A stretch of DNA of 5,329 bases from Candidatus Poribacteria bacterium (GTDB lineage: Bacteria > Abyssobacteria > SURF-5): NCBI GenBank assembly GCA_016215705.1, contig JACRIR010000176.1, forward strand, positions 1 through 5,329. The letters are read 5' to 3'. The translations under genes were made by a program, and so were the position numbers. Numbering within the stretch: position 1 is the stretch's first letter; each line of letters opens with the position of its first letter. Under the pieces are notes generated by a model. That model did no database searches. It was not told the origin of the DNA and was given only the letters and a program-made list of their open reading frames with translations. Below are positions 1 to 4,570 of this stretch, piece by piece.

Positions 1-119
1 AGGCCACCGAAGGATCGCACTAACAAACAGTCAGTGTATGAATAGAACTCTGTACTACTCACGTTCGAAATCATGAATTCTTGTCGCGATTCTCATGACA
101 CACCGTATGAAACTCACAC
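1..119. other. Left-edge stretch with no supported gene
   Basis: I see no recognisable gene here. All three plus-strand frames hit a stop within the first 85 bases. One minus-strand frame is open from an ATG at 74-72 to the window edge (24 codons), but it has no convincing ribosome binding site and no recognisable motif, so I do not call it. Confidence 0.5.
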
Positions 120-188
120 GGGCGCAATGAATTGCGCCCCTACAGGAGTATACGAGGGATTTCTGTAGGGGCGCGATTCATCGCGCCC
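120..188. repeat. Head-to-head pair of palindromic GGGCGC elements
   Basis: Two near-perfect palindromes lie in inverted orientation. Positions 120-139 form a 9-bp stem (GGGCGCAAT/ATTGCGCCC) and 169-188 form another 9-bp stem (GGGCGCGAT/ATCGCGCCC). Each carries an adjoining CTACA (140-144) or TGTAG (164-168), so the two 25-bp arms are also inverted copies of each other around a 19-bp centre. This is the layout of a REP/BIME-like or small palindromic mobile element. It sits 56 bp beyond the cobT stop, so its transcript could fold strongly and protect or end the cob mRNA, although it has no T-run of an intrinsic terminator. A related palindrome lies inside cobU (1714-1729) and a shorter one at 5031-5052. 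Confidence 0.8.
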
Positions 189-198
189 GATATGGCGA

Positions 199-243: not shown

Positions 244-1308
244 TCATCCCTTTGCTTTGGAGACGGCGGCCTCGTCAAAGGTCGCCACTTCCGTCAATAT
301 CCGCGCTGCCGCCTCGACCAATGTCATTGCGAGCGCTGCTCCCGTCCCTTCTCCGAGCCGAAGATCGAGGTCCAGCAACGGAGTCTTGCCCAGGTGGGCC
401 AGCATTGCCTGGTGACCGCACTCGACGCTCTTGTGCGCGGCAATCATATAATCCGCCGACAGCGGCGCGAGGCAACGCGCAATCAACGCCCCGGCGGTCG
501 CGGGGAATCCGTCAAGAATGACCGGCCTACGCATCGCCGCCGCTCCGAGCACAAGGCCGGCAATCCCGCCGATTTCGAACCCGCCGACCTTAGAGAGAAC
601 GTCTAATCCGTCGTCGGGGTCGGGCTTGTTGACGGCAAGGGACTTCTCAATCATTTCCACTTTATGATGCAGTTGGCCGTTTTCGATTCCGGTTCCGCGC
701 CCCGTGACGGTTTCAACGGACTTCGCTGTGATTGCGGCAACCACCGCGCTCGCCGATGTGGTATTCCCGATCCCCATGTCGCCCGTTCCGAATATGTCCG
801 TGCCTGCTCCGAGGTCGAAAGCCACCTCGATGCCCGCCTCGAGACAGCGAACCGCCTGTTCCCTCGTCATTGCCGGGCCGCAAATCATGTTCTGAGTTCC
901 GCTGCCGACCCGCTTCGTTATGATCCTTCCGGCCTGCGATAACTCGCTGAGGTCTCCCGCCACTCCCATATCGACCACCACCACTCGAGCGTTTGCGACC
1001 CTCGCAAGAGCATTGATGCCGGCCCCGCCATTGACGAAATTGTGCACCATTTGCAGCGTGACTTCCTGTGGATACCTGCTCACTCCCTCAGCGGCGACAC
1101 CGTGGTCGGCTGCCATAGTTACAACCGCGCGTCTTTCGACCTTCGGGTTCATCGAGCGAGTCATTCCCGCGAGATCCACCGCCAGGTCCATGAGCCGTCC
1201 GAGCGCCCAATACGGCATCGTGAGTTGCTCCAGCCGCGTCCGCGCCTTATCGCGGAAACCCGAGTCTTGCGCGACTATCTGTCCGATTGTGGTCTTAAGC
1301 AAATCCAT
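244..1308 (-). CDS. cobT: Nicotinate-nucleotide--dimethylbenzimidazole phosphoribosyltransferase (CobT)
   Basis: This cytoplasmic enzyme moves phosphoribose from nicotinate mononucleotide to 5,6-dimethylbenzimidazole, giving alpha-ribazole 5'-phosphate, the lower-ligand half of cobalamin. At 354 residues it is the normal family length and looks intact. Visible family blocks are ADHGV (67-71), GDMGIGNTT (176-184), VTGRGTGI (201-208), GGFEIGGIAG (242-251), ILDGFP (264-269), HKSVECGH (292-299) and LRLGEGTGAALA. E320 in the last block aligns with the catalytic Glu317 of the Salmonella enzyme. The active-site loop has GDMG where many homologues have GEMG, a conservative change. The ATG at 1308 is preceded by AGGA with 8 nt spacing (1320-1317). 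The gene follows cobU by 89 bp on the same strand, separated by a hairpin repeat, so it is probably the second gene of the riboswitch-controlled unit. The lower ligand actually used cannot be told from sequence. Confidence 0.96.
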   Translation of the reverse strand: MDLLKTTIGQIVAQDSGFRDKARTRLEQLTMPYWALGRLMDLAVDLAGMTRSMNPKVERRAVVTMAADHGVAAEGVSRYPQEVTLQMVHNFVNGGAGINALARVANARVVVVDMGVAGDLSELSQAGRIITKRVGSGTQNMICGPAMTREQAVRCLEAGIEVAFDLGAGTDIFGTGDMGIGNTTSASAVVAAITAKSVETVTGRGTGIENGQLHHKVEMIEKSLAVNKPDPDDGLDVLSKVGGFEIGGIAGLVLGAAAMRRPVILDGFPATAGALIARCLAPLSADYMIAAHKSVECGHQAMLAHLGKTPLLDLDLRLGEGTGAALAMTLVEAAARILTEVATFDEAAVSKAKG

Positions 1309-1397: not shown

Positions 1398-2102
1398 TCA
1401 TGAATGTGCTCGCTTTACGTACACCGGCAGTCCGCAAACGACAAGAGTCACCTCATCCGCCGCAGCGGCCATCACTTGATTGCATCTTCCCGCAAGATCC
1501 CGGAACAAGCGCGACGCGGAATTATCCGGCACTATCCCCATGCCGACTTCATTCGCGACGAACACGACCGTGCCTCGGTTTCGTCGGCAAGCTTCGATCA
1601 CTTCCTCGCAGCGAGTCGAGATAATCTCTTCGGTGATACTGGAAATGTCCCGCGATCCTTTATTGATACTGGAAACGTTCCCTGATTCTGCATCCCGGTC
1701 AGGCTGTTGTAGGTGCGAATTTATTCGCATGGTGCTTCGGGCCTCTTCTCGCTTTGTGTCTCCGCATACATTCGTGCCCGCAATCTCGCGAGGTGTCACC
1801 GTGTTCTCGCCTGCTTCATGCATCAGGTTGTTAATCCACAAGGTCAAACAGTCAACCAGGATAACGGCGGATTCCTCGGAGCTTCGTATCGCCCGGACGA
1901 GTTCCAGCGGTTCTTCCAAAAGCTTCCAGTCAGTCTTGGAGCGGGCCTCTCGGTGCTTCCTTATCCTTTCTCGCATCTCGACATCCATCGCAACAGCCGT
2001 GGCAATAAATGTCCTTTGTCCCGGCACGCCTTCGGCAAGTCTCCGCGCATACTCGCTCTTGCCGCTCCTGCTTCCGCCTGTTATCAAGATTATTCTCGCC
2101 AT
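1398..2102 (-). CDS. cobU: Bifunctional adenosylcobinamide kinase / adenosylcobinamide-phosphate guanylyltransferase, with internal expansion
   Basis: CobU/CobP phosphorylates adenosylcobinamide and then transfers GMP to give AdoCbi-GDP, the activated partner of alpha-ribazole. The P-loop GGSRSGKS is at 9-16. RIRKHREAR (46-54) carries H50, matching the guanylylated His46 of Salmonella CobU. VDCLTLWINNL (83-93), NEVGMGIVPDN (184-194) and RDLAGRCNQ with AAAADEV (201-218) are all family blocks. The start is secure because the P-loop begins eight residues in, but the ribosome binding site is weak (AAGTGGA, about 2117-2111). At 234 residues it is about 50 longer than typical (roughly 180). The excess lies between residues about 108 and 156: a segment encoding MRINSH (125-130) comes from a palindrome, and 137-156 is a tandem decapeptide pair (DAESGNVSSI, NKGSRDISSI). 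All catalytic blocks are intact and the frame is open, so I infer a working enzyme with an enlarged surface loop. It is first in the B12-controlled unit. Confidence 0.95.
   Translation of the reverse strand: MARIILITGGSRSGKSEYARRLAEGVPGQRTFIATAVAMDVEMRERIRKHREARSKTDWKLLEEPLELVRAIRSSEESAVILVDCLTLWINNLMHEAGENTVTPREIAGTNVCGDTKREEARSTMRINSHLQQPDRDAESGNVSSINKGSRDISSITEEIISTRCEEVIEACRRNRGTVVFVANEVGMGIVPDNSASRLFRDLAGRCNQVMAAAADEVTLVVCGLPVYVKRAHS
1634..1693. repeat. In-frame tandem duplication of 30 bp inside cobU
   Basis: Two adjacent 30-bp units (1634-1663 and 1664-1693) match at 23 of 30 positions, with the first 12 bases (TGATACTGGAAA) identical. The unit is exactly ten codons and encodes DAESGNVSSI then NKGSRDISSI, so copy number change would keep the cobU frame. 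It lies in the part of the protein that other CobU proteins lack. Confidence 0.8.
1707..1734. repeat. Palindromic element copy inside cobU
   Basis: TGCGAAT (1714-1720) and ATTCGCA (1723-1729) form a perfect 7-bp inverted repeat with a 2-nt centre, preceded by TGTAGG (1708-1713). The right arm of the pair near the window start has the same order: TGTAGG (164-169), then GCG, an AT-rich centre and CGC. The cobU copy is read in frame as MRINSH and flanking residues within the extra segment. I infer a REP-like element that entered the gene without breaking it. Confidence 0.6.
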
Positions 2103-2321: not shown

Positions 2322-2349
2322 TTCACCGAGAGTCAAAACACCCTTTGTC

Positions 2350-2513
2350 GGCTGTGGGTAGGTCTTCTGGCTTACGGATCTCTCTACTCGCCGCGCCTTC
2401 CCGGTCTGATGAACCAGTGACTGTAGCGGCTTTCGTACCCGATTACAGCGGCGGGACCGCGACGGACTCTCACCGTCTTCCCATGTGTTTCCCCTGAGGA
2501 AACACCCACTTCC
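2350..2513 (-). ncRNA. Cobalamin (adenosylcobalamin) riboswitch
   Basis: Read on the minus strand this shows the hallmark blocks of the B12 aptamer in order: a GTTTCC/GGAAAC hairpin region (2503-2487), GGTGAGAGTCC (2474-2464), GGTCCCGCC followed by GCTGTAA (to 2443), and the B12 box GCCAGAAGACCTACC (2371-2357). The closing P1 stem pairs GTGGGT (2509-2504) with ACCCAC (2359-2354). It begins about 12 nt after the predicted transcription start and is followed by an intrinsic terminator, so it should act by transcription attenuation, lowering cobU-cobT expression when adenosylcobalamin is plentiful. Confidence 0.95.
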
Positions 2514-2528
2514 GTCATGTCAAGCCGT

Positions 2529-4278: not shown

Positions 4279-4292
4279 TTTGAAGCACGTCC

Positions 4293-4570
4293 ATTCGTGT
4301 AATTCGTGTTCCAAAAAACTCTTCTTTTTCTTAATCCGTGCTAATCCGTAATGCAGATGTCCCTTCTCTTCTTTTTCTTATCTACCCCGTGTTCCCCGTG
4401 GTTTGATCTCTTTTTCTTCTTTTTCTTTTCCCTTAATCCGTGCAATCAGTGTAATCCGTGGTTCCCTATTTTCTTCTTTTGTTTCTTTTTCCCCGAATCC
4501 TACTAATCCGTGGTCGCAAATGTTTTTTCTCTTCTTCTTCCCATTTTCCCCGTGTTCCCCGTGGTTTGAT
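4293..4570. repeat. Cluster of ATCCGTG/ATTCGTG repeats alternating with pyrimidine tracts
   Basis: This cluster fills most of the gap between the DUF1844 gene and purA. Repeat blocks are at 4293-4312, 4331-4350, 4385-4407, 4433-4465, 4495-4516 and 4548-4570, each made of two or three spaced copies of ATCCGTG, ATTCGTG or CCCCGTG and often ending in GTGGTT. Pyrimidine tracts rich in TTCTTTTTC separate them. The blocks at 4385-4407 and 4548-4570 are identical over 23 bp. All copies point the same way. On the minus strand, the sense strand for purA, they read as purine tracts joined to CACGGATTA-type units. I see no gene in this stretch. Confidence 0.8.

Follow-up and report, generated by a model that had tools for sequence, protein, structure and literature searches.

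An in-frame insert of repeat DNA in the CobU protein of a Candidatus Poribacteria genome, and the same palindromic repeat in other genes of the host

Introduction

How does a CobU protein, the adenosylcobinamide kinase/adenosylcobinamide-phosphate guanylyltransferase of B12 salvage, come to have a long extra segment between two of its conserved blocks, and what has become of the enzyme that carries it? The question is raised by the window analyzed here, a 5.3-kb contig (5,329 nucleotides in full) of a Candidatus Poribacteria bacterium with an assembly of 270 contigs. A preliminary description of this DNA had proposed that about 50 residues of its CobU were composed of repeat-derived DNA inserted in frame, in the manner of the palindromic elements of Rickettsia. 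We compared the protein with its relatives, examined the DNA of the extra segment, and looked for the same repeat in other genes of the host genome.

The cobU gene and its setting

The 234-residue CobU frame has no stop. Its product matches Pfam PF02283 as a single domain over residues 5-227 (1.7e-56; 190.9 bits vs. a cut-off of 27) and passes the curated cut-off of NCBIfam NF004469 (187.8 bits vs. 161). NNLM occupies residues 91-94 and NEVG residues 184-187, and all 30 columns that are invariant across 14 CobU proteins, including the P-loop GG-RSGKS, are conserved in the window protein. The earlier claim of an open frame with its CobU motifs in place thus stands. The gene lies between a cobalamin riboswitch and a cobT-type gene in the order riboswitch-cobU-cobT on one strand (Table 1), no other CobU match was found in the host genome, and the genome also encodes CobS. 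Because the sole cobU found keeps its invariant residues, stands in this arrangement and is accompanied by CobS, the enzyme is probably still active.

Table 1. Positions of cobU, its neighbors and the parts of its insert in the window.
Feature	Position	Strand	Evidence
cobT-type phosphoribosyltransferase, downstream of cobU, same strand	244..1308	-	Pfam PF02277, 1.5e-126
cobU (adenosylcobinamide kinase/adenosylcobinamide-phosphate guanylyltransferase)	1398..2102	-	234 aa; PF02283, NF004469
Repeat-derived in-frame insert, residues about 106-158, net +52 aa	1629..1787	-	CobU alignments, codon score, pLDDT
Two tandem 30-bp copies (TGATACTGGAAAYGTYCC...), like box GAGACTGTCCCGCAATT, common upstream of REPs in this genome	1634..1693	+	Repeat search, 81%
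Linker joining box copies and REP	1694..1708	+	Similar linker (..GGCCAGGCTGTTGTAGG) beside REP at G000:C77:3607 (host genome)
GTAG REP, GTAG + GTGCGAAT-TT-ATTCGCAT hairpin; MRINSHLQ on cobU strand	1709..1730	+	Genome copy count
Decayed opposite REP arm, dimer with 1709-1730	1763..1785	-	nhmmer profile
Cobalamin riboswitch, upstream of cobU	2340..2524	-	Rfam RF00174, 113 bits, 1.3e-28

A segment missing from CobU relatives

From M94 to N184 the window protein has 89 residues, compared with 37 in the protein of the same-family genome G001; for Salmonella CobU the distance is about 43 (counted from alignments), so that the rough doubling noted earlier is right. G001, the sole same-family genome in which cobU was found, is the nearest relative compared; its linker reads NNLMREADARGEKITEKDISSRC, and relative to it the window protein has gained 52 residues in the stretch that leads from NNLM to the following helix. 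The two proteins are 56% identical on one side of the insert and 65% on the other. No CobU match was found in G002, the second same-family genome. A comparable segment was present in none of the 27 distinct CobU relatives in the alignment (G001 and 26 others), and no insert-carrying protein was found among the CobU relatives compared. Solved CobU structures likewise align to the window protein in two blocks only, at about residues 1-101 and 158-230, and therefore lack the segment between them. A further contig search gave one distant CobU, from an uncultured actinobacterium, that is also without the insert, and a viral-contig search gave one distant relative that served structure alignment only. 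The search for relatives listed two same-family genomes, the next level being "same domain," which suggests that the host lineage is thinly sampled.

The insert has a codon score of 0.01 per codon, unlike the parts of cobU on either side, which score 0.16 and 0.13. Its ends are uncertain by a few codons, with GAGATT at both ends, 159 nt apart. The residues covered by repeat DNA (107-157; window 1634-1784) nearly coincide with the extra part proposed earlier, at about 108-156.

Repeat DNA making up the insert

At the core of the insert, window positions 1709-1729 read GTAGGTGCGAATTTATTCGCA, in which a GTAG head leads into a hairpin whose loop has two bases. The host genome contains 15 exact sites of this 21-mer and 148 sites at up to 3 mismatches, compared with 0 for the reversed control, and the repeat origin of the insert core is therefore not chance. 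Thus the proposed repeat origin was borne out, and so was the expectation that part of the segment would recur elsewhere in the genome. The same-family genomes G001 and G002 have 50 and 250 REP sites, respectively.

The GTAG REP superfamily is characterized by a GT(A/G)G head with a perfect or near-perfect palindrome around a 2-4 base loop, by more than 100 copies per genome, and by inverted copies that are often paired at a fixed distance. The present element has the form GTAG-GTGCGAAT-TT-ATTCGCA(C), the final hairpin pair being G-T in the cobU copy, and its 148 copies exceed that number. Inverted pairs are frequent as well: among 93 REP elements surveyed in about 464 kb of host DNA around the listed REP sites, we found 19 inverted pairs, and 16 of these measure exactly 73 bp.

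Searching with an nhmmer profile built from 116 other sites (the window being excluded) gave a forward match over 1666-1791 (1.9e-13) and a reverse match over 1792-1701 (1.8e-4). Since the profile reveals a decayed second arm, the cobU insert looks like an older REP dimer in which one arm is intact and the other has decayed. Beside the dimer lie the two tandem 30-bp copies, which resemble a box with 31 sites at up to 3 mismatches (vs. 1 for the control), many of which adjoin REPs in the host genome; upstream of the REPs there, GGAAACTGTCCCGCAATTCT-like letters are favored. The copies likely derive from this REP-side box, although the profile match between the two is weak, and this weak resemblance leaves over a third of the insert less firmly explained than the rest.

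At cobU no target-site duplication was evident: except for the shared GAGATT, the flanks of the insert resemble each other no better than shuffles do (1928 of 2000 as good). The 19 REP dimers showed no excess over mismatched pairs.

Other repeats were seen in passing. A second palindromic repeat (GTAGGGGCGCGATTCATCGCGCCC) forms an inverted pair at window positions 119-189, downstream of cobT, and the intergenic stretches 4290-4570 and 2692-2740 consist of recurring phrases, among them AATCCGTGTAATCCGTGG and TTCTTCTTTTTC, several copies of which lie in the window. Yet another palindrome, GGGACACCATGCCGCATGGTGTCCC, is also abundant in the host genome (L085:3452-3476 and other places), with 59 matches at up to 3 mismatches in the 464 kb and 0 for the control, both strands of this near-palindrome being counted.

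Position of the insert in the CobU fold

An AlphaFold2 model of the window protein, run with a shallow alignment of three sequences, has pLDDT values of about 70-94 over most of the core, and every one of its 24 best fold matches is a CobU structure, those from Salmonella (1cbu and 1c9k) among them. Residues 100-152, which lie between model helices 86-99 and 158-173, have pLDDT values below 50. The insert is thus modeled as a loop between two helices that is probably disordered, in agreement with the loop location anticipated for it. In alignments the length of this inter-helix loop varies among CobU proteins, which makes extra residues plausible there.

Taken together, we consider it very probable that a GTAG REP dimer with flanking repeat DNA was inserted in frame into a CobU loop in the lineage of this genome. 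The element would have landed in the length-variable loop between the two helices; having a length that is a multiple of three and no stop, it would have been translated as a loop of about 52 residues, and this predicted disordered loop would have left the CobU fold and the invariant residues intact. We infer a neutral insert and not a useful one.

Alternative explanations

The inserted segment might instead have been co-opted, for example to regulate CobU assembly or to bind partners. That the frame has stayed open through a dimer with a decayed second arm means that the insert is not brand new. However, the segment is predicted to be disordered, its codon use differs from that of the rest of the gene, and the same REP peptide occurs in unrelated proteins, which argues against a role specific to CobU; we regard such a takeover as unlikely. 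We hold it to be no more probable that cobU is a pseudogene or a gene being lost, with the REP marking relaxed constraint. A 52-residue insertion is certainly unusual for a metabolic enzyme, but the open frame, the full set of invariant residues and the single genome copy do not fit a decaying gene, nor does the presence of the riboswitch, cobT and CobS together.

It is still less probable, and indeed hardly to be expected, that the segment is removed as an intron or intein, or that within the cobUT transcript it acts as structured RNA. It does contain an inverted repeat, but it is in frame and translatable, the riboswitch is the sole Rfam match in the window, and RNA folding of the insert is no better than that of shuffles (z 0.42). 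The insert is also far too short for an intein. Finally, the possibility that the segment is an ancestral part of CobU that relatives have lost can be dismissed with near certainty, for all that loop length varies among CobU proteins, since a conserved segment of the same length across genera was not seen among the 27 relatives and the core of the segment is a high-copy repeat of this genome.

The same repeat in other genes

The insert in cobU was confirmed, and it is not isolated: among the REP sites examined, the same REP lies in frame in five further host genes, in which the protein is recognizable on both sides and has extra residues relative to G001 or G002, so that, with cobU included, at least six host genes bear the REP. 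A stop-free frame over a REP was not enough for a gene to be counted, because such frames are common (at 82 of 117 REP sites such a frame extends 75 nt or more to each side); only genes with recognizable protein on both sides of the REP entered the count, which covers in-frame cases. An ORF for Peptidase_S13 (L083), in which the REP precedes the matched domain, was left out.

One of these genes encodes DNA polymerase B (L089:1467-4724 (+), G000:C259), which has three in-frame inserts relative to G001, of about 90, 130, and 40 aa. The insert of about 90 aa holds the REP, and those of about 130 and 40 aa are without it. The inserts are built of several repeat families, the frame is open, and identity to G001 around them is about 51-82%. 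In a VWA-domain protein (L133:7562-9958 (+), G000:C193), a single in-frame REP adds 24 aa relative to G002, and a sequence of about 30 nt is duplicated on its two sides (KIDESFLEKF/EIDESLPEKL; 0 of 2000 shuffles as good). This is the only gene with a clear flanking duplication, which the cobU insert lacks. The other three in-frame REPs are found in a family-9 glycosyltransferase (about +66 aa), in a GT2/TPR protein (about +43 aa), and in a gamma-glutamyltransferase for which the size of the insert is ill-defined, the protein sharing only 31-42% identity with its relatives.

A more general reading is compatible with the six REP-bearing genes and the three inserts of DNA polymerase B: repeat elements entering genes in frame would be a regular source of new disordered protein segments in this thinly sampled lineage, some of them now functional. 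We consider this improbable.

Transposase genes in the host genome

Repeats of this kind point to a REP-associated transposase resembling IS200/IS605, which may have moved the repeat now found in cobU. Three Y1-type transposases are encoded in the host genome, two of them at contig starts, and one narrowly exceeds the cut-off of NF047646 (REP-associated tyrosine transposase; 82.3 vs. 80). No REP of the GTAG family was seen in the examined DNA adjoining the host transposase genes, the NF047646-matching gene beginning less than 50 bp from its contig start. L085:47-1027 (+) (G000:C225) encodes a protein like REP-associated transposases, the C-terminal part of which matches the end of a DnaA family profile.

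Comparison with known systems

In known REP/RAYT systems, such as those of Pseudomonas, Stenotrophomonas, and enterobacteria, the gene for the transposase lies between two inverted REPs (PMC2817692). The repeat in cobU shares with them the GT(A/G)G head, the hairpin with a 2-4 base loop, the high copy number and the inverted pairs, and a REP-associated tyrosine transposase is encoded in its genome as in theirs, whereas transposase-flanking inverted REPs were not seen for it in the host DNA examined.

The likeness to Rickettsia that the preliminary description had drawn holds in part. As with the Rickettsia palindromic elements (RPE), a palindromic repeat would here be translated inside an otherwise normal protein. 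However, the element itself is a GTAG (RAYT-type) REP and probably not an RPE: RPE-4 and RPE-6 are grouped with the CGTC superfamily in PMC3733652, and this grouping sets them apart from the GTAG-headed element in cobU.

The closest parallel is with intragenic GTAG REPs, which, according to the same report from 2013, occur in many species, often as dimers encoding 20-30 aa, and also as clusters encoding 43-82 aa (PMC3733652). Insertions in flexible linkers or loops are proposed there to be possibly neutral. The cobU insert resembles these cases, such as uvrA of Opitutus terrae, in being a GTAG-headed palindrome, often a dimer there, that lies in frame within a known protein. It differs from them in gene and host and also in length, the dimers or groups described there being mostly of 20-30 aa and the REP with its flanking repeat in cobU being of about 52; cobU is not among the genes with intragenic GTAG REPs named in the sections consulted (PMC3733652).

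The present locus extends the known cases of a mobile palindrome becoming protein to an enzyme of B12 salvage and to a bacterial lineage that has been little sampled. Since same-family genomes without the inserts exist and the repeat has entered several genes, how well such insertions are tolerated can be tested directly in laboratory-expressed proteins. The mechanism is already known from the systems compared here, and the novelty of the Candidatus Poribacteria genome lies in which gene and which lineage are involved and in how many genes carry the repeat.
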